Below, piece by piece: positions 48,693 to 64,000 of a stretch of DNA of 64,000 nt. The position numbers and the translations under genes are program-made. Under the pieces are notes generated by a model. That model did no database searches. It was not told where the DNA came from and saw only the letters and a program-made list of their open reading frames with translations. Position 1 is the stretch's first letter; the number at the start of each line of letters is the position of its first letter. The DNA is from Gammaproteobacteria bacterium (GTDB lineage: Bacteria; Pseudomonadota; Gammaproteobacteria; Steroidobacterales; Steroidobacteraceae), in contig CANGBB010000002.1 of the NCBI GenBank assembly GCA_947452065.1, positions 310,001-374,000 of the forward strand, given 5' to 3'.

Positions 48693-50702
48693 TCATAAAT
48701 CGTACTTAATGCCAAAGCGCAGCGTGCGCGGCTCAGAGGGGCGCGAGAGGCGTCCGTTCACCTCTAGCCCCGCGGGATCCACGCCATCCACATGGCTGGG
48801 GTAGTAGTACTCAATGTCTCGGGCATCGCGATTGAACACATTCAGCAGCTCGCCATAGAGCATCACGCGCTGCGTCTTCCAAGCCGCGCGCAGATTGACC
48901 AAAGACTCCGCACCCGAGCGCTGCGAATTATCCGGCAGCAGAGGGTAGGGGCCCAGATAACGTAGTCGCGCACTCACTTCCCACGGCCCCTTGATGGCCG
49001 AGAACCCCACTTCGCCAGCCTGCTCAACGCTGCCCTGGATGAAGCGGCCCACAAAGCCGTTATCTTCCTGCGGGTCATCAAAGCGCGAGTGACTGCCTGT
49101 GAACACAGCGTCCACGGCCAGCCAGTCGATGGGGCGCCAGAAGCCCACCAGCTCGTAGCCGTGCCGCTTGCCCGCGCCCTTGGGCTCCACCGCATTGGAG
49201 TCGCCAACGAACACCAGTTCGCTGCCCAGGTTCAGCCACCAGTACGCGGCCGTCAGACGTAGCGCACCCACTTCATAGCGCGCACCGGCCTCATAGCCCG
49301 TGCCCTGCGAGAGCGCGGGCACCGGATCGGTCTTGCTGACCACACCGCGCCCATCATTGGAGTGAAAGCCGCGGCCCCAGTTACCGTAGAACTCGAGTCG
49401 GTCACCCACGGCATACGCCACACCCAGCTTGGGCGAGATCTGCGTCGCATCCGCGCTGCCGGCATTGCTCGAGCCGGTTCGCGCCACCACATCGTAGCGG
49501 TAGTAATCAGCGCGCAGGCCGCCCGTCACGCGCAGCGCCTTCAGCGGCGTCCACGTCGCTTCACTGTAGCCAGCCAGCGATCCCTCACGGACGCTGTTGT
49601 TGCTGATGTTGTCGGCGTACACGCCGTTTTCCGTGTGATCGACACCCACACTGGCAATGTCGTCATAGCGAAGATCCGAGCCCACCGAGACCCGGAACTG
49701 ATCCGTACGCAGCACCGTGCGCGTGGCCCGTCCACCCAAGGTGGTGCGACGGTCAAACTGCCGGATCTGATAGTCGTAGGTCGGGTCTGAAATCATGTTC
49801 CAGTGGTAGTACTGGCCGTAGCCATCCAGCTCCCAGTCATCAGCGATGAGCTGCGAGCCTAGGATCCAGCGGTCGGTGTGACCGGTGGCGGTGGGATCGA
49901 GCGAACAGAACTCATTCGGACACACCTTTGTGCCATAGGCACGCTCGGGCGCCTGCTCGGTCGGATGCCAGTCCGCCAGATAGCCCGACAGCGTGAGATT
50001 GAGCGTCCCCCGCGAAGTCGGCGCCGAGTACTTGGCCCAGCCCGAGTAATGCTGCAGGCCTTCCGCCAATTGCCACGGCCCGTCATAGGTCTTCCACTGA
50101 CCCAGATAGGTCAGCTGCCCCGAGCCCACGCCATTGCTGCCGCCGCCCGCAAGCCGCCGCCAGCCGTACTGGCCACCTTCCGCAGCCACAAACGGCCGCT
50201 TCAGCGAGTCGATTGTGGTGATGTAGGAAGCACCCGCCAGCGAGAAGTCACCCACATCAGCCCGATACGGACCCTTGCGGTAATCGATGCGTTCCACCGC
50301 TTCCGGAATCAAGCCGTTCACATCCAGATAACCCTGGCCATGCCCATGCGTGCGCAGGTTCCAAGGCACCCCGTCCACATAGGTGGAGAAGTCCGTGCCG
50401 TGGTCCAGATTAAAGCCGCGCAGGAAATACTGATTCGCCTTGCCACTGCCCGAATGCTGGGCGGCAATCAGGCCCGGCACCGCCTCCAGCAGCTCGGCCA
50501 CACGCAGCATCGGCCGGACCGACAAATCCGCGCCACCGACTGCACCCTCGCTGGCCGCAGCCGCCAGGCCGATCTGCTGCTCACCACGCGCAAAGACAAT
50601 GACCTCCTGCAGCTCCTCGGACTCATCGGCCGCATGGAGCGGCGCGGACAGGAGCAGGGCAGTGGAGGTGGCCAGCAGCGCGCGGCCGAGAATGATTCGC
50701 AT
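48693..50702 (-). CDS. TonB-dependent outer membrane receptor
   Basis: Signal peptide, plug domain (VAELLEAVPGLIAAQHSGSGKANQYFLRGFNLDHGTDFSTYVDGVPWN), C-terminal beta-barrel sequence RTLRFGIKYDL. Confidence 0.93.
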   Translation of the reverse strand: MRIILGRALLATSTALLLSAPLHAADESEELQEVIVFARGEQQIGLAAAASEGAVGGADLSVRPMLRVAELLEAVPGLIAAQHSGSGKANQYFLRGFNLDHGTDFSTYVDGVPWNLRTHGHGQGYLDVNGLIPEAVERIDYRKGPYRADVGDFSLAGASYITTIDSLKRPFVAAEGGQYGWRRLAGGGSNGVGSGQLTYLGQWKTYDGPWQLAEGLQHYSGWAKYSAPTSRGTLNLTLSGYLADWHPTEQAPERAYGTKVCPNEFCSLDPTATGHTDRWILGSQLIADDWELDGYGQYYHWNMISDPTYDYQIRQFDRRTTLGGRATRTVLRTDQFRVSVGSDLRYDDIASVGVDHTENGVYADNISNNSVREGSLAGYSEATWTPLKALRVTGGLRADYYRYDVVARTGSSNAGSADATQISPKLGVAYAVGDRLEFYGNWGRGFHSNDGRGVVSKTDPVPALSQGTGYEAGARYEVGALRLTAAYWWLNLGSELVFVGDSNAVEPKGAGKRHGYELVGFWRPIDWLAVDAVFTGSHSRFDDPQEDNGFVGRFIQGSVEQAGEVGFSAIKGPWEVSARLRYLGPYPLLPDNSQRSGAESLVNLRAAWKTQRVMLYGELLNVFNRDARDIEYYYPSHVDGVDPAGLEVNGRLSRPSEPRTLRFGIKYDL

Positions 50703-50828
50703 CCGTCAATTCCTTGTGGATCGTCGCGACGAGTGGGTTACTCCACCTAGTATGCCCGGAAATCCGGGCCAGGACTTAACCCGGCAAGACTGGTGCCCGC
50801 GACGGCGGCGTGCCACCATGCGCGCCAC

Positions 50829-50905
50829 GCGCCCGTAGCTCAGTTGGATAGAGTACTTGGCTTCGAACCAAGTGGTCGGGAGTTCGAATCTCTCCGGGCG
50901 CGCCA
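50829..50905 (+). tRNA. tRNA-Arg (anticodon TCG), CCA encoded
   Basis: GCGCCCG...CGGGCGC acceptor pairing, anticodon loop CTTCGAA flanked by CTTGG/CCAAG, T-loop TTCGAAT, encoded CCA. Confidence 0.97.
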
Positions 50906-52519
50906 TTTGTGAACAGAACCACGAACTCGGGCGCTGGGGTCAACAACAGCCTCCGCCAAGTCTGTTTTGTCCCCGATTACTCGGATCCGCTCATCTCCGA
51001 CCTCGATGCAAGAGATGACGGCGCGCAGGTACGCCTTGCGGGCCTGAATATCTCCGGTGTCGAGCTTCTCTCTCATCAAATCCGTGAAAGCAGCAATCCG
51101 CCCAGGGGTGATTACCGGTACTTGGTCGGCGCTTGTTGTGATCCGGTCCAGAGCTGCTTGAGCGATGTCTCGTTCCGTCTTGAGTGATTCGATACGTGTC
51201 TTGAGCTCTGCATCCAAATCAATGACCCCGTCCTCAATTGCGCGGTACAAGCGGGTCAGCTTGTCCTTGATCATCGCAATCTGGTCTAGGAGTGTTTGTT
51301 GGCGTCGAGTCACTTCCTCGGAACGGGTGTGTTGACGCCGAACCAGAGCGTCCAGAATCGCTGACATCCGTTCCGGCACCAAGAGTTGGTCCTTAATGTT
51401 CTGAACGATGAGTTGATCAAGCTTCTCCATCGGTACGTGGCGACCCGGGCAAGTGGTCTCGCCTTGCCGATGGGCACCGCCGCAGCTGTAGTAGGTGTAG
51501 GAGCGGTGACGTTTGCGCGTGCCCGTGCGCGTCATCCCGGCGCCGCAAGTTGCGCACACGGCCAGCCCTGTGAGTAGGATTGGTCCGTTTACGATGCGCG
51601 ACGGTGTTACGCGCGGATTGTTGTTCTTCAGTTTGGTTTGAACGCGCTCGAACAGATTCATCGGCAGGATCGCGGGAATGTTGATTTCCACAATGCTGCT
51701 GGGATCATGGGGCTGGCCGGTTTTTGAGTTACGGATCCCGTACGGCCACTTGCCGGTAGCGTAGAAGCGGTGCGTGAGAATCCTGTACAGCGGACCGACC
51801 CCAAACGGCCGGCCGCGGCGAGTCCGGTAACCATGTTTGTTCAGCCATTTGGCTGACTCTTTGACGCCGAGTGGTGGGAGTGAGTCAATGCCATCAGCGT
51901 GGAGTGTAAAAATCAGTCGCACCAGTTCTGCTTCGACAGGATCAACAGCCACTCGCTTCTTAATCTTCGATCCGCGCCGCTCGGCCTCAACAACCCGATA
52001 CCCGAGAGGAGGTGTGGCTCCATTCCAAAACCCCTGCTTGGCCGACTCGCGCATCGCGCGCAGGACGTTCTTGCCGTTTTCCCGAGACGTGTATTCGTCG
52101 AAGATGCCGATGATTTGGCGCATCAGCGCCTGAGACGGATCGTCCCCTGTTGGCTGGGTCACAGAGATCACCTCGACGCCTGACTTGCGCAGCCTGCGTA
52201 TCGTCAGCTCCATCTCCGCGCCATTCCGGTAGAAGCGCGAGAAGGCGTGAACGCAGATCACGTCGAACTGCCGATCTGGGCTGTGGGCGTCTTCGAGCAT
52301 GCGCTGGAATACCGGCCTGCGATCATCTGTGGCCGAGGCCCCCGGTTCCACGTATTCCTCGGTCACGGTCCAGCCCTGCGTCTCACAGAAGCGGCGTGTG
52401 AGGTCGCGCTGTGAGGGGATGGAAACATCGCCGGCTGCCTGTCGACCCGTACTGACGCGTAAGTAGAGGGCAGCGCGGCGTCGTGCGCCGGGTGGAGTAA
52501 GCGGGGCGTGCTTCTTCAT
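50840..52519 (-). CDS. Large serine recombinase (resolvase/recombinase/zinc ribbon); 3' end runs antisense through tRNA-Arg
   Basis: AALYLRVSTGRQAAGDVSIPSQ, VHAFSRFYRNGAE, LTGLAVCATCGAGM..YYSCGGAHRQGETTCPG; terminal WRARRDSNSRPLGSKPSTLSN is tRNA antisense. Confidence 0.95.
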   Translation of the reverse strand: MKKHAPLTPPGARRRAALYLRVSTGRQAAGDVSIPSQRDLTRRFCETQGWTVTEEYVEPGASATDDRRPVFQRMLEDAHSPDRQFDVICVHAFSRFYRNGAEMELTIRRLRKSGVEVISVTQPTGDDPSQALMRQIIGIFDEYTSRENGKNVLRAMRESAKQGFWNGATPPLGYRVVEAERRGSKIKKRVAVDPVEAELVRLIFTLHADGIDSLPPLGVKESAKWLNKHGYRTRRGRPFGVGPLYRILTHRFYATGKWPYGIRNSKTGQPHDPSSIVEINIPAILPMNLFERVQTKLKNNNPRVTPSRIVNGPILLTGLAVCATCGAGMTRTGTRKRHRSYTYYSCGGAHRQGETTCPGRHVPMEKLDQLIVQNIKDQLLVPERMSAILDALVRRQHTRSEEVTRRQQTLLDQIAMIKDKLTRLYRAIEDGVIDLDAELKTRIESLKTERDIAQAALDRITTSADQVPVITPGRIAAFTDLMREKLDTGDIQARKAYLRAVISCIEVGDERIRVIGDKTDLAEAVVDPSARVRGSVHKWRARRDSNSRPLGSKPSTLSN

Positions 52520-52594
52520 GATGAGGTCCTCATGGACAGACGGTGCGCGGAGGAGTTGAGCGGGGCGTCGCCGACAGAGGCGGTCTGCTCAGGG

Positions 52595-52849
52595 TCAGTT
52601 GTGCGGCGTTAGGAAAGGCGCCAGTGATGCGCCTAGCAACTGTTCGATGGCGCCGAGTTCGGCTTCTGTGATCGGCGCATTGGAGGACGTTGCCCATTCG
52701 ATGGGCTGTGAGATCTCCGTCTGTCCGGGGCGCTTGCGGCGCACCAACGGACAGCGCGGTGCGGGGTTGCTGAGTGCAACCTCGCTGATTCGCGCTGATC
52801 TGTTCCGCTGATGCTTTCGCATGTGCGCAGAGTGCCCAGCGCCAGCCAA
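52595..52849 (-). CDS. Possible small hypothetical protein
   Basis: 84 codons; C-terminal part (ISQPIEWATSSNAPITEAELGAIEQLLGASLAPFLTPHN) looks protein-like. Confidence 0.3.
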   Translation of the reverse strand: MAGAGHSAHMRKHQRNRSARISEVALSNPAPRCPLVRRKRPGQTEISQPIEWATSSNAPITEAELGAIEQLLGASLAPFLTPHN

Positions 52850-52920
52850 GGTAGATAGGGCAAATCCGTCCCATAACCAAATGGAATTGAGCTGCGGTTT
52901 TGTTTAACTGCTTCACGGTG

Positions 52921-53682
52921 CTATGAGTGCTTCTGGCCGATACCTGCTCGCTTAAGAGTTCTGTATCGCCGAGCAACATTTCGGGCGATCGCAGGCTTTG
53001 CGCCATGCATGCTCAGTCCGCACATCTTTATGATGATTTCTCCCAAATCGAGAAATCGCTTAGGCGCATGTGATGACAAGACTATTCCGAATATCTCTTC
53101 CGAATTGTTGGCCAATTCAGTGATGAGGAGATCGCGCACCGCTTGTTGCGGGCGCCCGCCGCGGTTCTCTCGGCGCTCGATCTCTAGAAAATCCGTGAGC
53201 GGTTTGCGCAAGGTCCGAATGAAGTGCTGGATCAGTTGTGGTCCATGCGTAAGGCCAAGAGTCCTTTTTTTGTAGTCAGGCAGGCCCGCTGCCGGGCGCT
53301 TCTTTGTGCGTCGGCCATATAGCTGCTTTTTGCCTAAAAAACTGCTCAAAGCCTCATCAGAGAACAAGAGGCCAATATTCCAGAGACATTCCGTGGGGAA
53401 CGCGTCCGCCAAAATTCCAGAGTGTGTTGAGGTGAAGGATTCAATCTTAGCCAACGCTTTCTCGAACTCCTTCATGCGGCGCACGATGGTGTTCCGATCC
53501 GGACGCGATGCGCGTGTCTGGTTATAGCGAATGATTTGTTCGCGCACATCCAGCAAGACTTGCTGGAGCATCCTCGCCGCTCTTGGAGTGAGGGAGGCAT
53601 ATTCGATCAGGGCTTCCCATTTTTCCTCTGATGGAATTGTTATCACTGGAAGTGAAGACGAGGTTTGCTTCGGGCGCATCAT
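52921..53682 (-). CDS. Unknown 253-aa protein, third gene of the tyrosine recombinase cassette
   Basis: ATGA overlap with upstream recombinase, strong GGAGGA SD within that gene (gcaaaaaggaggaaATGATG). Confidence 0.75.
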   Translation of the reverse strand: MMRPKQTSSSLPVITIPSEEKWEALIEYASLTPRAARMLQQVLLDVREQIIRYNQTRASRPDRNTIVRRMKEFEKALAKIESFTSTHSGILADAFPTECLWNIGLLFSDEALSSFLGKKQLYGRRTKKRPAAGLPDYKKRTLGLTHGPQLIQHFIRTLRKPLTDFLEIERRENRGGRPQQAVRDLLITELANNSEEIFGIVLSSHAPKRFLDLGEIIIKMCGLSMHGAKPAIARNVARRYRTLKRAGIGQKHS

Positions 53683-54758
53683 TTCCTCCTTTTTGCATCA
53701 GCTACGACACGTACAAACTCGGCATGGCTGATAGTAGCCTGAGCGTGCAGATAGTGTCGTTCAGTGGTGCTGAATGTTCTGTGTCCAAGGAGTGGTGCCG
53801 CAACCCTCACGCGTGCGGGGTCTGCAATGGCCAGCGTTGTGGCTGCGGCGTCACGGAACAGGTGTGGGTTGATCGCCTCGCCGAAAGCCTCGCGCGTGCA
53901 GGCGCGTATCCGGTCATAGATCGCCATCTGTGTCATCGGAGATCCGTCCTTTGAGGCCCACAAAGCGGACTCCAACGGCTTGGTCCAACGCCCGGTCCGA
54001 GCTCTCAGCAGTTCGCGATAGTGCGATACATACCGATCCAGTCGTTCGGTCAGCGCAGCCGGCACCGGAGCCTCATAGGCCGCATGCGTCTTCGTCTCCT
54101 CGGGCGATAGCCAGACCAGCCAATGGCTGGCTTGGCGGCGCAGCGATATACCGAGACGAAGCTCCGCGAGATTCCGTCGCCGTAACGGTACGAGGGCGAG
54201 AAACGCGATGATCAAACCATCCCGGTACGTCATTGCGGCTCTAAGCTCCTCGAGGGCTTCTGCCTGATCCATGAGAGTCATGCCGAGGGCTAGGAGCTCA
54301 TTCGAGTGGCGCAGGTGCCGCTTACTCCGAGCTGGAACGTGGCGCGCTCGGACCTTGGAGGCGATGCGGTGAATGATGCTCCAGCGTCGCCCCGGAGCCA
54401 TGATGTGCGCTACTTCACCCAATTCCTGCAGCCGGGCGAGGATCGTCTGGGTGCTGTTGCCAAGGCTTGCGAGGTGGGTGGCGTAGGCGCGTACCCGCTC
54501 AGCTGTGATCCGTTCTTCAGGAGGCAGGCACAAGGCCGCTGCGTCGTGGCGCCCCAGATAAGTGATCCAGCGGCCATACCCCTTGGCCGCCTTGGTGTTG
54601 GATATCACCGTGTGGTTGGCCCGTGCGCCACCCTCATCGAGGACATCTGCCGGCTCAAGGGCCTTGAGCCACCGCACACGGTCACTTGCCGGCCACTGCT
54701 CAACGGGCAGGCATCTGCGCTCAGGCGCTTTACCCCGGCCGTACTGACCACCGCTCAT
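53679..54758 (-). CDS. Tyrosine recombinase (359 aa)
   Basis: Catalytic set: PLRRRNLAEL, EETKTHAAY, HLFRDAAATTL, LLGHRTFSTTERHYLHA. Confidence 0.92.
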   Translation of the reverse strand: MSGGQYGRGKAPERRCLPVEQWPASDRVRWLKALEPADVLDEGGARANHTVISNTKAAKGYGRWITYLGRHDAAALCLPPEERITAERVRAYATHLASLGNSTQTILARLQELGEVAHIMAPGRRWSIIHRIASKVRARHVPARSKRHLRHSNELLALGMTLMDQAEALEELRAAMTYRDGLIIAFLALVPLRRRNLAELRLGISLRRQASHWLVWLSPEETKTHAAYEAPVPAALTERLDRYVSHYRELLRARTGRWTKPLESALWASKDGSPMTQMAIYDRIRACTREAFGEAINPHLFRDAAATTLAIADPARVRVAAPLLGHRTFSTTERHYLHAQATISHAEFVRVVADAKRRK

Positions 54759-56446
54759 GGACGCGACCAGTCCCCGCCGCGTCGAGCGCGGCGCGAGGGT
54801 TTAGGTGTTTGCTTCACACGCGCGCTGACAACGGATGCAAAGTGGGCCGTGGCAGTACGCGTCTCGGCACCGGTGTAAATGGAGGTGGTGGTCTGCATCG
54901 ATCGATGCCCGAGTACTTGCCGCACGACTTCGTATTCGCCAGGTCGGCGGTCGAGGAAAATCTTGGCGCCCGCATGCCGAAAGAGATGAGCATGCATTCT
55001 CAGCCCGAGATAGCGGTGTATGACCTTGCCCATCTGTGAGCCCAGGAGGCTCGAGGACTTGGTACGGCCGGCCTCGCCGGGAAAGAGCGCATTCGTGGGG
55101 CTGTTCAGTAGCGTCGGTCGATGCTCGCGGATATACCAAGCCAGAATGGTTCGCGTGTGATCCGGGATCTGCGCTTCGATGGGCTGTCCGTTCTTGGTCT
55201 CCTCCTCATTGAAAACCAAGTAGACCGTGCCGCTTCGCTCGATCAGATGTTTGTCCAGCTCGATGCTAGCCAGATTACTAATACGGAGCGGAATAGCCTG
55301 CTGTATCGCAATCGCAGCGGCAGCCTGCGCGAGCAGCGCCTTGGGTTTTGCGGCACGTGCGCTCTGCTGCAGTTCCGCTCGGATGCGCTCTGGCAGACTC
55401 AGGAACGCCTCCACGGTCTGCGGGTCATTGAAGGGGCGCAGGCGTTCGCGGTTGCGCGGCGTCAGGCCGCGTTTGTTGCTAAGCAGTTTGCTCGTGAGCT
55501 TCTTCAGGGTCAGGACTGAGGCGTCGTCGAGCTCAAGATACTTATCGGCAACATATTTGAGGAACGCTGCCATGTAGCCGATGCTCGGTACGGGCTTGCG
55601 CTCATGCCTGTCTAATAGGAAGTTCAAGATCGTGAAAACGTTCTCGGCCGTCACTACATCGCGTAACGATCGAAGGGACTCAATCGGATGCCCGCTGTGC
55701 ACCAGAGCGGATGCGGCCACGCGCAACTGATATTCGCGCGTCTTGAGTGTGCTCACCCGAGCCGGTCGGCTCGGGCTGTGCTCTGAGAGATCAAAACCTC
55801 CTCGCCAGTCGAGGAAGGCGTCCACGTTCGCTTTGAGCTCGGGCAGGAAGCTGGACCAGGGCAGGGCATAGGTATCCCGGCGCGACTCGCGTGTAATCTC
55901 GATAGCAGGCCAGCCGGGTATCTCGCGTACACAGGCATTCCAAGCCCACGTTAGACCGTCCCAAGCCTTCTCCGGATGGGCCCTAAGGCGGTCATTCAGC
56001 AGCGCATCACGATAGCTTTCCAAGTGGGCGAGGGTCACTGACGCGGGGTCCAGCTTCAGGCTGCTCAGATATCGCACGAGAGCTCTCAGGCGGGTGGATC
56101 GATTGCGATCGAGTCCAGTCAGCAGCGTTTCCCACGCCTCCGATATTGGGGCCCTGTTGCGGCCGGGCTGGATGGGCCGAACCTGTCCCAGTGCGCGGCC
56201 GAACAGGGAGCGGATGTTCGCCCAGCGGCCAGCCGAGACCCCGGCCGCACCGGGGGAGAGTTCCTGCAGACGCTTGCGCAATCGCTGAACGTCGACCGGT
56301 ATGGCCTCAGGCGGTGCCCCGAGCAGGCGGCTGACGGTCCGGACCGCGGAGACCTGATCTCGACGCTGCCCATCGGTGAGATTGGCCTGTAAAACAGCCG
56401 AAATCACATCCGCGAGCGTCTGTCGTGATGGGGCGATTGTGTGCAT
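54755..56446 (-). CDS. Tyrosine recombinase (563 aa)
   Basis: Catalytic set: PLRISNLASIEL, EETKNGQP, HLFRHAGAKIFL, LGHRSMQTTTSIYTG; ATGA overlap with next gene. Confidence 0.93.
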   Translation of the reverse strand: MHTIAPSRQTLADVISAVLQANLTDGQRRDQVSAVRTVSRLLGAPPEAIPVDVQRLRKRLQELSPGAAGVSAGRWANIRSLFGRALGQVRPIQPGRNRAPISEAWETLLTGLDRNRSTRLRALVRYLSSLKLDPASVTLAHLESYRDALLNDRLRAHPEKAWDGLTWAWNACVREIPGWPAIEITRESRRDTYALPWSSFLPELKANVDAFLDWRGGFDLSEHSPSRPARVSTLKTREYQLRVAASALVHSGHPIESLRSLRDVVTAENVFTILNFLLDRHERKPVPSIGYMAAFLKYVADKYLELDDASVLTLKKLTSKLLSNKRGLTPRNRERLRPFNDPQTVEAFLSLPERIRAELQQSARAAKPKALLAQAAAAIAIQQAIPLRISNLASIELDKHLIERSGTVYLVFNEEETKNGQPIEAQIPDHTRTILAWYIREHRPTLLNSPTNALFPGEAGRTKSSSLLGSQMGKVIHRYLGLRMHAHLFRHAGAKIFLDRRPGEYEVVRQVLGHRSMQTTTSIYTGAETRTATAHFASVVSARVKQTPKPSRRARRGGDWSRP

Positions 56447-56486
56447 TGTGGTCTCGTTAAGACTCGGGTGTACAAATCCTAGGAAA

Positions 56487-56539
56487 CGTTAATACCACAA
56501 AAAAAGGACTAACGCCGTTACCACATACAGGTATTAACG
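56487..56539. repeat. 10-bp inverted repeat CGTTAATACC...GGTATTAACG with an intermediate partial copy
   Basis: 56487-56496 and 56530-56539 exact reverse complements; related CGTTACCAC between them. Confidence 0.7.
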
Positions 56540-56545
56540 AAAAGC

Positions 56546-56878
56546 TCATTTGGTGCTCTCCCTGGCTTTTTCAGAGATAAAAGCCTCTAGGTCCGCTCTG
56601 CGGACTCGAACTGATCGCCCGACGTTGAATGAGCGGATCTGCCGCGCCGTGACCAAGCGCCGGATCGTTTTGAGCGAGACGCGTAAGCAGGCGGCGGTTT
56701 CTGAAAGCGTAAGGATCTCTGGTGCTGCTACGATTGGCTTGCTGAGTAGCCCGGATTCGGTAGTGGTCAGAGGGGGTCTATTGCCCGGTTCGTCTGTCGC
56801 TGCCGCCCAAGATGGGATGAGAGCGCACTCCACCGCTTCAGCGGCGCATTTGGGCTCTCGATGACGGCGAATGTTCAT
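56546..56878 (-). CDS. Excisionase/MerR-like helix-turn-helix protein
   Basis: EILTLSETAACLRVSLKTIRRLVTARQIRSFNVGRSVRVRRADLEAFISEKA; true start may be internal. Confidence 0.82.
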   Translation of the reverse strand: MNIRRHREPKCAAEAVECALIPSWAAATDEPGNRPPLTTTESGLLSKPIVAAPEILTLSETAACLRVSLKTIRRLVTARQIRSFNVGRSVRVRRADLEAFISEKARESTK

Positions 56879-56997
56879 GCGCCGATTCTGAATCTGCCGG
56901 GTAAACGGGCGCCACGTAAAACCGACCCGAAACCTCTAGGGAAATTGAAGAGGTTTTGTGAGATTCATGCCGGCTGGAGTAGAATCCTAAAAACACT

Positions 56998-57025
56998 GAG
57001 AGTTCGAAACTCTATCGATCCGCCA
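56998..57025 (+). other. tRNA 3'-end-like fragment (T-arm, acceptor 3' strand, CCA)
   Basis: GAGAGTTCGAAACTCTATCGATCCGCCA; no matching 5' half found upstream. Confidence 0.45.
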
Positions 57026-57070
57026 GAACAAGTCCTGCAAACTCGCTCAGTTGGGTTGTCAGGCGCTCAG

Positions 57071-57096
57071 AGCCCCGCACCATGCGGGGCTTTTTG
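57071..57096 (+). terminator. Rho-independent terminator
   Basis: AGCCCCGCA-(c/ca)-TGCGGGGCT hairpin followed by TTTTT. Confidence 0.85.
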
Positions 57097-57187
57097 CTAT
57101 GGGCTCCTGACTGACCCCGTAGCCACCCACCCCCGTAAACCGTCTCAAACCCCGTTTCGTCTCAGAACCTCCTGACTTTTTCGCCGT

Positions 57188-57236
57188 GGTACGGCAGGAG
57201 GGGTGTGACAAAAAATCGGCGTTTCGGTGCCGTACC
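57188..57236. repeat. 9-bp inverted repeat GGTACGGCA/TGCCGTACC downstream of the 129-aa gene
   Basis: 57188-57196 and 57228-57236 exact reverse complements. Confidence 0.6.
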
Positions 57237-57273
57237 GTTTGAACAAGTCCAAGGTGAACCGTTCCCTCCCGTG

Positions 57274-57663
57274 CTAGTCATCGCCTGCAACGTCGGGTTT
57301 GGGAACCTCCGGTGCCTCGGGTAAAAGATCGAGAAGCTCCAGGAGCGCCTGTACGTCGAAGTCGATCGAAGTGTCGCCTTGCTCGATCCACCAGCCAGCC
57401 CCCATGCCGCCAAAACTGCCCCAGTACGTCTCCTGCCATTCGTAGACTTTGGCGTCGCCAACCCAGAGTTCACTGTACTGGACCACTTCGGTGTAGGAAT
57501 TTGGGTCAGTGATGAATTCAGGTTCATCGGGGTTCGTCACAACCTTTAGTTCAATTCCCTGTTCCCGTAGCTGCTGGATTCTTTCGGGCAATTGATCGTC
57601 CAACTCGCTGTCGGCTAGATCGCAAAGTTCTTTGAAGATCTCAGAGGGATTTAAGTTGCTCAT
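57274..57663 (-). CDS. Unknown highly acidic 129-aa protein, third gene of the methylase/helicase operon
   Basis: Same strand, 17 nt after the methylase stop; abundant D/E, few K/R; plausible globular sequence. Confidence 0.75.
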   Translation of the reverse strand: MSNLNPSEIFKELCDLADSELDDQLPERIQQLREQGIELKVVTNPDEPEFITDPNSYTEVVQYSELWVGDAKVYEWQETYWGSFGGMGAGWWIEQGDTSIDFDVQALLELLDLLPEAPEVPKPDVAGDD

Positions 57664-57680
57664 AGGTCTAACTAGACTAT

Positions 57681-60600
57681 TTACGCCCCATCACTCGACT
57701 GGAAAGCATCTGGCCAACCGCCATGCTGCTCGATCACCTTGTCGATCTCTGCCATGAGCCGGATCGTCTCGGACAGGGCGACGATGACTTTCTGGTAGTG
57801 GGTGATGTCTTTCTTCGAGAGCATGCGGCCTTTGCGGTCCTTGATCCATTTCTCGCAGACCTGGTAGCTGCCAACGTGAAAGTTCCATACCTCTTCGCAC
57901 ACACCCTGGAAGCCAGTGGTCTGAGCCTTGTCAAGCCAGACGGTGTCTCGCGACCACGAGACCTTTTCCACTACTGGGTCCCGTCCGCCAATAAACTCAG
58001 TTATTTGATGCTCCAGCCTAGGTGATTCCAGTAGATGTAGGGAGATAAGCTCACTGCCGAGCCTAGCAAGCGGTCGGAACAGTGCCAAATTACCGGTCAA
58101 AGGCAGACGCGGAAAGTCTGACTTAAGCAAACTCGCGTAGCGAGCGCGATAGTTCTGAGAATAGAGAATGGAGTAGACATAATCGAAGACTTCACTAGAG
58201 TTTAACGGTTCTATTCCAAGCCGCTCGGCAAACACTTTCAAAAAGCCAGGCGTGTAGTTACTTTGAATTTCGGCATCGGCGAATAGTTCGCTGTCTCGTC
58301 TTCCAGCGCCGTCGCTTTTAAGGTACAGAGGAAAAGCACTGGTGCTTTCTCGGCTCTTGTTCGAAACGGAACAACAGTCGGAAGGAATCCGGGTTACGAA
58401 GGCATGTGCGAACCCCTCAGTTATTTGCTGCTGTGAAACCAGCAGCGCCAAATTTCTCTGACCATCAAGATGCTGCATCGTCGGACGCGCGGTGTATCGA
58501 ACTATGTCATCAGAATATATGATAGTACGAGTATCGAACGGCCTGCAGAGAGCGGGTACTATTGGACTCTCAGTCTTGGAATCGCGTAGCTTTTGCCGTG
58601 CTGGTTTGAGCTGCCAAAGCGGGGTATCTTTGAGCTCGTATGCTTCGCGTAGTTGGCTTTCTGGCACCTCAAAATCAATGAACTCTTCCAATCGACTCCG
58701 CATTTCCTGCGCGGTAAAAGCATATGCAAACTTGTCCTTGTGCGTCTTGATGCCGCTTGAGAACTTTATGACGGAATCGCGCAATGAGGGCCATGACAAG
58801 TATTCCGCCCCCATCTTGTTTTCAACTGGGGCCAAGAGGTAAAAAGGCGATGCTGGAGAGAGTGCTGTCCAAGTTGTCGTGCCGAATGAATGCTTGGCTA
58901 AGAAGTCATACTTCGCGCTGCGCTGCCCGATACTTTCAGATCGATCGATTCGTGAGATAGTTTTGGAGCCAGCGTTGTTCCGCATCAAAGAGATGCAGAC
59001 ACCTTGCTGAATATCGAACACATTTTCATCCCGACTCCCGTGCTCATCGACTTCGGACTTTTTTTGACTGCCGTGTAAGTCAAAAATGCTTATGGCGGGA
59101 AACGACACAACGAGGTGTTGGCGCATTCCACGAAAGCTTCTGCTGTCTAAAAAGGAATTGTTCGAGATGTAGCCAACTATTCCTCTACCAGCTGTGAGAA
59201 TTCCACACTCTGCTAATCGGATGAACTTGATGTAATCGTCCTGAAGATTTTTCTCGAACTGAAGTGCATTTCGCTCTTTTATTCTCTCGCCATCTACAAA
59301 CTTGTAGTCTTTAATCAACTTCCTAGCTGTCTCGTTCAAGTTTGCCGATTGAATGCTGTAGGGCGGGTTGCCGATGATGACGGTGAAACGTTTGTGGCGT
59401 TTGATTTCGTTCACGGCGGCAGCTTCGTGGGCGAGGGCGTCGAAGCCGATGAGGGGGAGCTGTTTCACCCACGGCTCGAGCGCATTGGTTAGGTATATGC
59501 GGGCGCGTTCCTCGGTGTCAAAGCGGTAGCCGGTCTCGGCAAGCTTGAGCCCGATCTTCATATGGGCGATGGCGTAGGGGGCCATCATCAGCTCGAAGGC
59601 GTGGAGGCGCGGGAGGAGGTGCTGCGGCACGTAGTCGTTCCACGCGGCGCGCTGCTGGGCTTCGGTGAGGCGCTGCTGCTTCCACTTCGCCGCGAGGGTG
59701 CGGTGGATCACGTCGATGGCTTCGACGAGGAAGGTGGCTGTGCCAGTGGCAGGGTCGAGAATCTGGACGAAGGGCTCGTCCGGGGAGATCGTCCGCGTCT
59801 CATTGGGATCATCCGTGTGAGGCGGAAGTTTCAGACCGGGGTGTTTTTTAAGCATCTCACCCCAAGTGGTGGTGTCAGCGAGACCGTCCTCCAGCCCGAA
59901 CTCGGTCTGCAGTAGTTCATGCACGCTGCGCACTATGTAAGAAACGACCGGCTGCGGCGTGTAAAAAACACCGCGGTCCTTGCGGATGCGCTTGTCGTAG
60001 GCCTGCAGGAATCCTTCAAAGAAGTGGACGACCGGATCTTCTTGGCGATTGCGGTCGCCAAAGTCGCGCAGGACCGCCTCCATCTTGGCTTCGTCGAGAA
60101 GCTCCACGACATCTGACACGCCGAGTTCGTCGAAGTCGATACCTGCTCCATCTACTTTTCCTTGCCGCCCCCCTACCTTGAGGAAGGTCTGCATCAGCTC
60201 CCTAAGGAAGGGACTGGTCCGCATGTGGGCCGCAAAGTCGTCCGCCGTCTTTTTGGTCGGGTCCGCGATGCGTGATGACAGAAGGCCGTAAGAGATTGTC
60301 TGCGCGTACATGTCCGCGAAGCCCTCAGCATCCAGGTCATGGATCAGGGACTCCTGGAAAGCTTTCATCAACTTGGTCAAGGGGCCACGGGAAGACTCGA
60401 TAGAAATCGCAGCACGGATGCGGTCGCGAATCGCGCAGGCAAGCTCGGCCAGTCGGATGGAGAGCCGCTCTGCCGTGGTGATGACCTCGCGATGGCCCAG
60501 CGTGAACGCACTGCGCCAGCGGCGGCGCCATTCGTCGACGTTGTTGTCATCTTGTGGCCAGGCGAGGTTTTCCGTTAGTTCGCGGGCCACCGCGTCCAGG

Positions 60601-61082
60601 TGCAGGGGAGTGTCCTGATGGTCCCAACCCAGGACCTTCAAAGTGGGCAAGTCCTGCCGACTGGCGGGCCTTGCGAAGTGCGCAAAGCTTATCTGGCGAG
60701 AGCCACCTAGACCATAGTTAGATACGAAGAGCAGATCATCGGCCTCCCAGCCTGCACGATCCGCAATATTGGCCGACGCGCGTTTTTTGATTGCTACTTG
60801 GCTAAGAACACGTCGCAATGCCACCACAGGAAGGCTTTTGGGCTCGAACTTGACGAAGAAGATGCCCCAAGGTTGCCGTGCAGAGAGTGGACGAAGGCGC
60901 TTTATTTCCTGGATCTTTGCAGCGTTCTCAGGGTTGATGCCAAGCTCCTCCGCTGTGTAATCGAAGGTCAGTTCTTCAAAGTCATCGCCGTCTATTGGCC
61001 AGCCCATGTGATCGCGTAGATAGCGCACAAGCTGATCAAAGCGCTGGATGCGTGCGAGCTCGGCTCGGTGATCAATTGCCAT
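57681..61082 (-). CDS. N6-adenine DNA methyltransferase, Eco57I/type-ISP-like, 1133 aa
   Basis: Motif I ILDPATGTATFLVEAIDVI, motif IV IIGNPPYS, helical region FADMYAQTISYGLLSSRIAD, GVFYTPQPVVSYIVRSV. Confidence 0.92.
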   Translation of the reverse strand: MAIDHRAELARIQRFDQLVRYLRDHMGWPIDGDDFEELTFDYTAEELGINPENAAKIQEIKRLRPLSARQPWGIFFVKFEPKSLPVVALRRVLSQVAIKKRASANIADRAGWEADDLLFVSNYGLGGSRQISFAHFARPASRQDLPTLKVLGWDHQDTPLHLDAVARELTENLAWPQDDNNVDEWRRRWRSAFTLGHREVITTAERLSIRLAELACAIRDRIRAAISIESSRGPLTKLMKAFQESLIHDLDAEGFADMYAQTISYGLLSSRIADPTKKTADDFAAHMRTSPFLRELMQTFLKVGGRQGKVDGAGIDFDELGVSDVVELLDEAKMEAVLRDFGDRNRQEDPVVHFFEGFLQAYDKRIRKDRGVFYTPQPVVSYIVRSVHELLQTEFGLEDGLADTTTWGEMLKKHPGLKLPPHTDDPNETRTISPDEPFVQILDPATGTATFLVEAIDVIHRTLAAKWKQQRLTEAQQRAAWNDYVPQHLLPRLHAFELMMAPYAIAHMKIGLKLAETGYRFDTEERARIYLTNALEPWVKQLPLIGFDALAHEAAAVNEIKRHKRFTVIIGNPPYSIQSANLNETARKLIKDYKFVDGERIKERNALQFEKNLQDDYIKFIRLAECGILTAGRGIVGYISNNSFLDSRSFRGMRQHLVVSFPAISIFDLHGSQKKSEVDEHGSRDENVFDIQQGVCISLMRNNAGSKTISRIDRSESIGQRSAKYDFLAKHSFGTTTWTALSPASPFYLLAPVENKMGAEYLSWPSLRDSVIKFSSGIKTHKDKFAYAFTAQEMRSRLEEFIDFEVPESQLREAYELKDTPLWQLKPARQKLRDSKTESPIVPALCRPFDTRTIIYSDDIVRYTARPTMQHLDGQRNLALLVSQQQITEGFAHAFVTRIPSDCCSVSNKSRESTSAFPLYLKSDGAGRRDSELFADAEIQSNYTPGFLKVFAERLGIEPLNSSEVFDYVYSILYSQNYRARYASLLKSDFPRLPLTGNLALFRPLARLGSELISLHLLESPRLEHQITEFIGGRDPVVEKVSWSRDTVWLDKAQTTGFQGVCEEVWNFHVGSYQVCEKWIKDRKGRMLSKKDITHYQKVIVALSETIRLMAEIDKVIEQHGGWPDAFQSSDGA

Positions 61083-61086
61083 TGCT

Positions 61087-64000
61087 TCAACCCTCGTTTA
61101 GTTCCATCCAGCACTTGAGCACGGGTTTGACGCCGACGGGTGCATCGACACGCTTGAGATAACTGCTCTTGATGTGCTTCTCAATCTTGTTTCGGACATC
61201 CATAAGAGTCTGGGCAGGCGTCTTGCATAAGCGAGGTGTTTCCACCGCGCTGCGGATGCTGACTACGATATCCCCGGCCTCCTCGCGGATGGCATCTCGG
61301 CCCAGGTCGTAGAGGTACCATCGGGTGGTGCCAGCGGCCTCAGTGAATTCGCCAGCTTCCTTATCCAGGGCCGGCAGGGCGTAGCAGAAGAAGACGCCCA
61401 CGGTGCCGCGGGCCACCTTCTTTCGCCCACTGAAGAGCGAGCCGGGCAGCGCATTCAGGCGCGCTTCCAGCGATGGGTCGGCCTGCAGGAGGTCTTGGTA
61501 CTCCAGGTGCATGTCCTCCACGGCCGTACGGGTGCCTTCGTAGGCGTGGTTGAACTCCTTGAGCGCCTCGAAGTTGTCCTCCGGCGTCAGGAGCTTCTTG
61601 CCCTCGATACCCAGGGTCTTGGAAATCAGCAGCGTCTTCTGCGTGACCTTGCTATAAAGCGTGAGGATGGCGTTTAGCTCGTCGGGGGGCAGGAAGTTCC
61701 AAAAGATCACCTTGCCACGTGAGGGAGCCATCTCTGGGTGATCGGCTACGAGCCGTTTCTCGACCTCAGGGTTCATCCGGCGGTCCACCCGGCCGATACG
61801 CTGCATGAGCCGAACTGGATTCCAGTGGATGTCGTAGTTGATCATCCTGCAGGCGTCCTGGAGGTTGAGTCCTTCGGACAGGACGTCGGTGGAGATCAGC
61901 ACGCGAATCTCCTGCCTGCCTTTCGCAATCAACTCTGCCGAAGTCGTGCCGTTGTAGTAGGGCGCGAAGCGCTTGATGACGTCTGCGCGATTTCCCTTGG
62001 TAGCACTGTCCACCTCGCCCACGCCTTGAATGCCTGCCTTGTCGAGCTCCCGCTTCAGATAGCGGGCCGTGTCGGCAAACTCGGTGAACACCAGCACCTT
62101 CTCGTTGACGAGATCCTTCGTGCCAAGAAGCCGGATGAGCTTCTGAAGTTTGTCGTCATGCTTGGGCTGGAACTTCTGGGCTTCCTCAATGAAATGGATC
62201 AGTTGGTCGAGATCGCGGTAGGTTTCCGTCAGCATCGCCGCAATGTCGTACTCCTTTGAGTCCAGGCGCACGACGGCGTCTAGCAACTCCAGGGGGACGA
62301 TGTCCTCATCTTCGGCGTCCTCCCCTTCATCTCCCCACAGCTCACGCTGATGCTTCACCGCATATCCCAGCGCTGCGGCGTTATGGAGCTTCCACTGCTC
62401 CAGCTTCTTCTTCTGCGCTGCGGTTTCGCTGTGAATCTCGATGAAAGCCAGCAGCTTCTGGAGCAATCGCTCGCATGACACCTCGAAGGCTGCCACCGAG
62501 CTCTCGAAGCGTTTGAGGAAATTGGTGCGGATCAGGCCTACGACCTGCTTTTGCTGGTTCTGTTCGAAAGGGTTGATCGACGCGTCGGTTCCCTTATACC
62601 AGGCCAAGGGGTAGTACATCGGCAGAGCAAACAGAGGGTTAATTCGCTTAAACGCGTTCTCGAACATATCGAGCAACCGACCATAGGTCTTTTTGATGGA
62701 GTACTCAGCAACTTGCGGAGCCTTGCGGTCCGGAAAAGCAGCGGCCTTGCCCGTCTCCCGAATCTGGCTCTCTCGAGCATATGCGCGGCTACGCTGCACT
62801 ACTAAGTGCTGAAAGATGGTGTCCTTGGCTAAGAGCTCTTCCGCCTCTTCCATGTGCTCCGAAACATCGGTGATGTCGTGCGCGACGCGCTTACGCAGAT
62901 CCCTCTCCATCTGGGCAAAATGCGCCACCAGGTTGTTGACGCCCAGGGTCCGAGCAAAGAATGCGGGGTCTTTGCGTGTGAACAATTCGGCCAAATGCCG
63001 AAAGTCAGTGATCCGGTTATTGATAGGGGTAGCAGTTAGAAGGAATACCGTCTTTCCTCTAAGCTCACCATTGAGAAGTTCGAAAAGGCGGTAGTAGCGA
63101 GAAGGCTCGATGTCCTGTCCGTCGCCGGCGCGGCCTGGGTTCCGGAAGTGGTGAGCCTCGTCAATCACAATTGCATCAGCTAGCTCTGATAAACGTCGGA
63201 ATCGGTCTGGGAACTCGCCCTTTCGACCTAAGTCGGTATGTGCGAACACTGCCAAATTGCTAAAGTCAGAGCCACCACCGATGTGCGGCAACCACTCCTT
63301 GAGGTGTGGTTCCCAAACGCCTTCCTTAGCGGCCTTAGGGGCGAACAAGACCACCCTCTTGTTCTCGTGCAAAACCAGCCGCTCAATGAGCATCAGGCCA
63401 ACAAAGGTCTTGCCTAAGCCTACGCCATCACAGAGAAAGGCTCCGCCATGCTGACGAGCTATCTTCATCAAGGCCCAATAGGCCTCCTTTTGGTAGCGGT
63501 CGATTCTCGGGAACATCTTCGACCGCGTTTCGTCCCATTCGCTTGCGGTGAGCTCGTGACCGCGGAAGAACTCTTGCAAGGCTTTGGCATAAACGTCGAA
63601 AGGCGTGTACTCGCGAACATGCCGCTCGACCACGTCAATCACCGCGTCGGTGATCTCTGAGGCTTCGTTCCAGTGAATCTCGAACCACTCCTGCAGCTGG
63701 GCGACCTCGCGCGCGCTCTGGATCTGTACGTTGAGTTCTATATTTTGGGTGAGCCCAGGCCCTGTGAAATTACTCGAACCAACTAAGGCCTGTGCCCCGA
63801 CCACCTCTAAGCGAGCATGAGTGATGTAAGCCTTGGCGTGGAATTTACTTTTGTCATACACGCGGCATTCGATCTTTTTACTCCGCAGTGCCTCAAGGAT
63901 GGCAGGTACTCTCTCGAGAAAAGGTTCCGGCGTTTTTTGCTGCTCAATGCTTTGATCGAGTACTTGCGATACATCGCTCCTTACCGAATCAAGGAGAGCT
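61087..64000 (-). CDS. PLD-domain plus SNF2/DEAH-type helicase fusion protein, 5' end truncated by window edge
   Basis: HAKAYITHARLEVVGAQALVGSSNFTGPG (PLD), GVGLGKTFVGLMLIERL, DEAHHFRN, MQRIGRVDRRMNPE; frame stays open from 63861 to 64000 (ALLDSVRSDVSQVLDQSIEQQKTPEPFLERVPAILEALRSKKIECR). Confidence 0.93.
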   Translation of the reverse strand, partial: ALLDSVRSDVSQVLDQSIEQQKTPEPFLERVPAILEALRSKKIECRVYDKSKFHAKAYITHARLEVVGAQALVGSSNFTGPGLTQNIELNVQIQSAREVAQLQEWFEIHWNEASEITDAVIDVVERHVREYTPFDVYAKALQEFFRGHELTASEWDETRSKMFPRIDRYQKEAYWALMKIARQHGGAFLCDGVGLGKTFVGLMLIERLVLHENKRVVLFAPKAAKEGVWEPHLKEWLPHIGGGSDFSNLAVFAHTDLGRKGEFPDRFRRLSELADAIVIDEAHHFRNPGRAGDGQDIEPSRYYRLFELLNGELRGKTVFLLTATPINNRITDFRHLAELFTRKDPAFFARTLGVNNLVAHFAQMERDLRKRVAHDITDVSEHMEEAEELLAKDTIFQHLVVQRSRAYARESQIRETGKAAAFPDRKAPQVAEYSIKKTYGRLLDMFENAFKRINPLFALPMYYPLAWYKGTDASINPFEQNQQKQVVGLIRTNFLKRFESSVAAFEVSCERLLQKLLAFIEIHSETAAQKKKLEQWKLHNAAALGYAVKHQRELWGDEGEDAEDEDIVPLELLDAVVRLDSKEYDIAAMLTETYRDLDQLIHFIEEAQKFQPKHDDKLQKLIRLLGTKDLVNEKVLVFTEFADTARYLKRELDKAGIQGVGEVDSATKGNRADVIKRFAPYYNGTTSAELIAKGRQEIRVLISTDVLSEGLNLQDACRMINYDIHWNPVRLMQRIGRVDRRMNPEVEKRLVADHPEMAPSRGKVIFWNFLPPDELNAILTLYSKVTQKTLLISKTLGIEGKKLLTPEDNFEALKEFNHAYEGTRTAVEDMHLEYQDLLQADPSLEARLNALPGSLFSGRKKVARGTVGVFFCYALPALDKEAGEFTEAAGTTRWYLYDLGRDAIREEAGDIVVSIRSAVETPRLCKTPAQTLMDVRNKIEKHIKSSYLKRVDAPVGVKPVLKCWMELNEG

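Follow-up and report, generated by a model that had tools for sequence, protein, structure and literature searches.

The serine recombinase gene of the analysed locus ends antisense within a tRNA-Arg gene. Comparison with relatives makes it highly probable that its element inserts at the tRNA 3′ end, that its attP straddles the 3′ end of the integrase gene, and that insertion exchanges one encoded C-terminal tail for another. The locus lies in a stretch of 64,000 nucleotides (the window) from a draft genome of 10 contigs, and its features are listed in Table 1.

Table 1. Features of the serine recombinase locus and of the adjoining island (coordinates within the window).
Feature	Coordinates	Strand	Basis
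Large serine recombinase (integrase); integrated form of 559 aa	50840..52519	-	Resolvase, Recombinase, Zn_ribbon_recom domains
tRNA-Arg (anticodon TCG), intact native host gene; attB/attL side of the island	50829..50905	+	tRNA call; native in genus
Integrase tail W539-N559 and stop, antisense of the tRNA	50840..50905	-	
TGGCGC core (tRNA 3′ terminus GCGCCA), presumed crossover region	50900..50905	-	S. meliloti and L093/L240 junctions
attP half-site arm CGAGTTCGTGGTTC, within the integrase 3′ coding end	50916..50929	-	
Island, left part; continues beyond the window to a predicted right end at G000:C2:400300	50906..64000	.	inferred
253-aa protein without a Pfam match; conserved together with both tyrosine recombinases	52921..53682	-	
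Tyrosine recombinase, 359 aa	53679..54758	-	
Tyrosine recombinase, 563 aa	54755..56446	-	
HTH protein, excisionase type; putative directionality factor	56546..56878	-	

The preliminary description had placed the recombinase stop in the tRNA D-arm and had read the last approximately 21 residues as the reverse complement of the tRNA. Both readings were borne out: the stop codon TGA is the complement of positions 50840-50842 in the D-arm, and tRNA positions 50843-50905, read antisense, encode the last 21 residues, WRARRDSNSRPLGSKPSTLSN. The first of them, W539 (codon TGG), corresponds to the complement of the tRNA 3′ CCA.

Pfam domains of the window protein follow the order N-terminal resolvase domain, Recombinase domain and Zn ribbon, and the catalytic serine S23 lies inside the stretch R21-V22-S23-T24, which is invariant across 48 homologues. 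For the integrated form, an AlphaFold2 model (mean pLDDT 82) was ordered to about residue 532, with long helices at 390-429 and 437-464 that represent the C-terminal coiled coil of large serine recombinases. Residues 533-559 were disordered, which fits a replaced, non-structural tail. Another serine recombinase in the same genome (G000:C2:263273-263560, L001) matches PF07508.

The tRNA-Arg(TCG) gene is present throughout the order. In same-genus genomes it is preceded by the same molybdopterin-gene neighbourhood, and the sequence 3′ of the tRNA differs. The possibility that the element had brought the tRNA with it was rejected, since the genus natively carries both the tRNA and the genes upstream of it. 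In two same-genus genomes (L053 8825-9970 and L060 2650-3756) a tyrosine phage integrase was found at the 3′ end of the same tRNA, which marks the site as a hot spot for unrelated integrases. The tRNA-Arg(TCG) copies at L053 8749-8823 and L062 1941-2015 are without an encoded CCA, which the others have.

A scan of 84,980 species genomes yielded 73 relatives of the recombinase, mostly from Alphaproteobacteria and with 27-82% identity in the best segment; further relatives were added from viral contigs and plasmids. ARAGORN called a tRNA at the gene end in 45 of the 77 usable homologues of the tree set, and in every one of these the W codon coincided with the start of the tRNA, with zero offset and in one and the same frame. 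W539 itself was invariant in all 48 aligned homologues. The overlapped tRNA species were Arg (several anticodons), Glu, Leu, Ser and Met, with tRNA-Asn in one more distant locus. In about 20 further homologues no tRNA was called and the protein ended in the same DSN-type antisense peptide; a few were cut by contig ends, and about a dozen ended elsewhere.

Antisense strands of tRNA genes often yield spurious open reading frames, which would favor reading the overlap as an accident of the genome or its annotation, with a truncated gene running by chance through an adjoining tRNA. Such an accident is refuted by the family pattern, in which, across many hosts and tRNA species, every homologue that has a tRNA called there places the same codon exactly at the tRNA terminus. 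It is also contradicted by the two empty-site comparisons given below, and its probability was considered negligible.

The integrated tail itself is not conserved. Close enzymes were found in different tRNA genes (L074 in Arg and L083 in Glu; L097 in Arg-ACG and L120 in Arg-CCG) with tails that differed, and the sequence of the integrated tail is therefore set by the host gene. On the integrase tree 20 label changes were counted, with loci without a called tRNA treated as one label. Two plasmid relatives may be mentioned separately. In Brevundimonas (L180 4977-6641) the gene continues into merA across a TGGCGC core; this secondary site supplies a further variant of the integrase tail. In Enterobacter (L179 6001-7644, beside trb conjugation genes) the gene likewise ends without a tRNA, and a possible left end of this locus was noted at L226:19967.

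The position of the crossover was obtained from empty and occupied sites. In S. meliloti, a relative occupies tRNA-Arg(CCG) on pSymB of strain ml21, and pMl9 of strain ml66 carries the empty site. The attB reads aaagac followed by TGGCGCACCCGACAGG; attL reads gtaag followed by TGGCGCACCCGACAGG, identical to attB from TGG on; and attR reads aaagac followed by TGGCGCGCCCGAGAGG, changing to element sequence by the seventh base (TGGCGC, then G). This comparison puts the exchange within TGGCGC, which is complementary to the GCGCCA at the tRNA terminus. The length of the element is 38,553 bp. Its rebuilt attP contains GGAGTGCCCAGTTT ... AAACTGGGCACTCC, a perfect 14-bp inverted repeat with its left arm in the coding sequence of the integrase. 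The tail is WRTRQDSNL in the integrated form and WRAREDETGHSYVIVAPIHF in the reconstructed excised form.

A second empty site was found in L240 (G506) for the occupied locus L093, from a sphingomonad MAG, with flanks about 94% identical. It confirmed, to within a 9-bp shared repeat, the left end of the L093 element. This constitutes an independent check, since that end had been predicted beforehand from the tail motif. In both comparisons the crossover fell within or beside TGGCGC/TGGTGC at the tRNA 3′ terminus. Two expectations of the preliminary description, that the attachment junction lies inside the integrase gene and that the integrated and circular C-termini differ, are thus upheld by these relatives, the second of them in silico. 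Three empty-site candidates for L127 (L228-L230) matched on the tRNA side only.

For the window island, a direct tRNA repeat at the far end, as in tyrosine-integrase islands, was sought first and was not found. When the contig was scanned for the core accompanied by a mirrored arm, a single site, G000:C2:400300 (L012:6300; full coordinate 90300), showed a 10-bp run about the same centre; there the TGGCGC core recurs and 10 bp of the arm CGAGTTCGTGGTTC are mirrored. The probable right end at this position would give an island of 39,395 bp with 56% GC, compared with 64% and 61.5% in the flanks. Immediately beyond this end are a LysR-type gene and recBCD-like genes (named by eye from translations). 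The repeat common to both ends is TGGCGCGCC, about 9 bp long.

Left ends were found likewise in L088 (two), L093, L110, L121, L124 and L127. Combining both junctions rebuilds an attP in the form of an inverted repeat, and the 3′ end of the integrase coding sequence itself serves as its left arm; in nine element ends the arms were mirrored about position +4 around a core of TGGCGC or TGGTGC. Each of the listed left ends extends the integrase frame with a tail that fits W[RC]x7[N/H]x[Y/H][V/T]I exactly or closely, that of the second L088 end being more divergent. When the element ends were joined, the integrase frame stayed open in all nine cases and gave the conserved peptide W..N.YVI, with tails stopping after 18-30 residues. 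The two L088 ends lie 26.0 and 40.9 kb upstream of the integrase, probably as a tandem of two elements at the same tRNA.

Leave-one-out scores of the true ends ranged from 9 to 25, although these are not fully independent because eight tails had initially been chosen by eye and with a loose pattern. The best other site in the same sequences scored at most 3.0, except for the second L088 end at 11.6. The window right end scored 12.9 against a null mean of -14.1 (sd 5.4; 2354 TGGYGC sites), and the only null site above it was the second L088 end, itself an element end. The probable right end located by the mirrored arm is confirmed by a tail motif trained without it. With this end, the predicted circle junction reads ...TTCACAAATGGCGCGCCGCTAAAACATCAGCC, and the circle does not give the same C-terminus as the integrated form: the predicted circular tail is WRAAKTSATNSYVIDLPTISRITQRPK, compared with the integrated tail WRARRDSNSRPLGSKPSTLSN.

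No left end was found in L094, L097, L109, L114, L066 or L075 within the 30-60 kb searched. In L066 and L088, integrase-like copies 5 and 39 kb upstream were considered as the attR arm and rejected as degenerate 80-bp remnants, which are probably leftovers of earlier insertions. A degenerate attP pattern detected no circular form or attP-form gene in the viral contigs or in 385 genomes of the class. One viral contig (L193/L210) was considered as a circle and rejected, as its two integrase ends differ.

Beyond the preliminary description, these comparisons indicate that a conserved coding sequence underlies the circular tail, and that tail exchange holds across a serine recombinase family at many tRNA genes. 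The conservation could instead belong to DNA, the far-end peptide being an attP arm bound by the enzyme and open in that frame by chance. The far end does mirror the integrase 3′ end about a fixed centre, which alone would suffice to fix the register, and the pN/pS of the circular tail is only about 0.6. However, peptide similarity across the nine ends was highest in the integrase frame and reached past the mirrored arm, including codons 12-15, beyond the usual 50-bp attP; none of 2000 codon-column permutations matched it. A stop within 17 codons occurred in none of the nine ends in the integrase frame, and in five and nine of them in the other two frames. A purely DNA-level origin was accordingly judged unlikely.

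The following course of events is proposed, and its anatomy and tail exchange are considered highly probable. The large serine recombinase would insert the island at the 3′ terminus of a tRNA gene, mostly of tRNAs ending in GCGCCA or GCACCA, by means of an attP that spans the integrase 3′ end and uses coding DNA as its left arm. The crossover would come after the last lysine or glutamate codon. In the excised circle the frame would enter the other end of the element and acquire the conserved tail of about 18-30 residues (W..N.YVI..). Integration would remove this tail and substitute an antisense-tRNA peptide of 9-21 residues, disordered in the model.

The most likely effect would be that enzyme made before or just after entry has the full tail, suited to attP x attB, and that the integrated gene supplies a differently ended enzyme. 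The excised-form enzyme would then be the integration-competent one and the integrated form an altered one. That the tail matters by limiting re-integration, or by making the enzyme await an excision factor, is put forward only tentatively. Equal caution applies to the broader view of the gene as a sensor of DNA state, in which only the circle encodes the tail needed for integration, insertion disarms or redirects the enzyme, and the arrangement characterizes a widespread tRNA-3′-end family.

The tail exchange may also be real but passive, with attP placed at the gene end for compactness, the enzyme complete at about residue 532 and either tail tolerated. This reading is a serious possibility, though short of an even chance. 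It is consistent with the model, in which order ceases at about residue 532 and residues 533-559 are disordered, with the free variation of the integrated tail according to the tRNA used, and with the unrelated tails of relatives inserted elsewhere. A free tail, however, would not be expected to keep one frame open in 9/9 ends, nor would the excised-form peptide be conserved in the right frame only, as far as codons 12-15 outside the usual attP.

A further explanation concerns expression rather than the protein: the strong tRNA promoter, head-on to the integrase after insertion and with the tRNA terminator displaced, would drive antisense transcription that lowers integrase synthesis. The integrase was convergent with the tRNA in every relative having a called tRNA, and positions 50600-52700 contain one weak terminator-like site only, no more than expected by chance. 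The same layout is nevertheless present in other tRNA islands with convergent integrases, and this explanation, regarded as rather improbable, leaves the conserved excised-form tail unaccounted for. The consequence favored here is a putative change of enzyme activity like that of phage Mx8, alongside which antisense transcripts from the tRNA promoter might also silence the gene.

The integrase of Mx8 is the nearest precedent for tail exchange. According to PMC6070905, which cites Tojo 1996 and Magrini 1999, this Myxococcus phage (IntP/IntX) has its attP within the integrase gene, whose 3′ end is replaced by a new one on integration; this changed the specificity and did not inactivate the enzyme. 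The likeness consists in an attP within the integrase coding sequence and in integrated and free forms that encode different ends, here by reconstruction.

Mx8 is a single phage whose integrase is of the tyrosine family, whereas here a large serine recombinase family is spread over many hosts, the crossover falls at a tRNA 3′ terminus, and the tail is taken antisense from the tRNA. The window recombinase would work like that of Mx8 yet is not a member of its group, being a serine and not a tyrosine recombinase.

With large serine recombinases of the phiC31, Bxb1 and TP901-1 type, for which the attP/attB principle is established (PMC3783163), the window protein has in common the order Resolvase, Recombinase, Zn ribbon and coiled coil, as well as an inverted-repeat attP with a short core common to attB. 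Unlike in these systems, the integrase gene shares its 3′ end with attP, and insertion is directed at a tRNA gene. Enzymes of this class integrate directionally and require a directionality factor for excision; the excisionase-like HTH protein near the window recombinase is a candidate for that role.

Islander-class tRNA islands resemble the window island in the restored intact tRNA, the adjoining island and the integrase convergent with the tRNA. By definition, however, that class combines a tRNA, a tRNA fragment at the far end and a tyrosine integrase, and the window island departs from it, with a serine recombinase at the junction, a displaced repeat of about 9 bp, and essentially the whole tRNA remaining host DNA. 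The best NCBIfam matches were SCCmec CcrB and CcrC, with 153 and 82 bits, each against a curated cut-off of 900 bits. The target of SCCmec cassettes is the 3′ end of a conserved gene. CcrB/CcrC are thus likewise serine recombinases moving a cassette into such an end, but the target differs and the window protein scores far below the curated family level.

A genomic-island database paper of 2014 stated that serine integrases were not known to target tRNA genes, and Mesorhizobium elements with serine integrases and tRNA sites appear in a list without detail. The antisense-tRNA tail arrangement was not described in the later papers searched, subscription literature being outside the scope, and novelty is therefore provisional. 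If true, the proposal would add a tRNA-targeting family with a built-in, reversible, state-dependent C-terminus to the serine integrases, which are widely used genome-engineering tools. As the two tails are short and defined, C-terminal control of direction or turnover is directly testable. When an integrase of this family is obtained from an integrated genome, its tail may be the wrong one, and the natural integrase of the free element must be reconstructed from attP.

Upstream of the serine recombinase lies a conserved block (window 52921-56878, minus strand) consisting of the HTH protein, two tyrosine recombinases and the 253-aa protein; the trio of the latter three was complete in 16 homologous loci. 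One element thus keeps two kinds of recombinase, serine and tyrosine. The cargo at window 57681-63861 and L011:1613-15719 resembles anti-phage defence in its gene content, with a type ISP/IIG restriction enzyme, a PLD-Snf2 helicase, a C5 methyltransferase (DrmMII-like), a HEPN-Hsp70 protein and a UvrD-like helicase, together with several proteins without any family.
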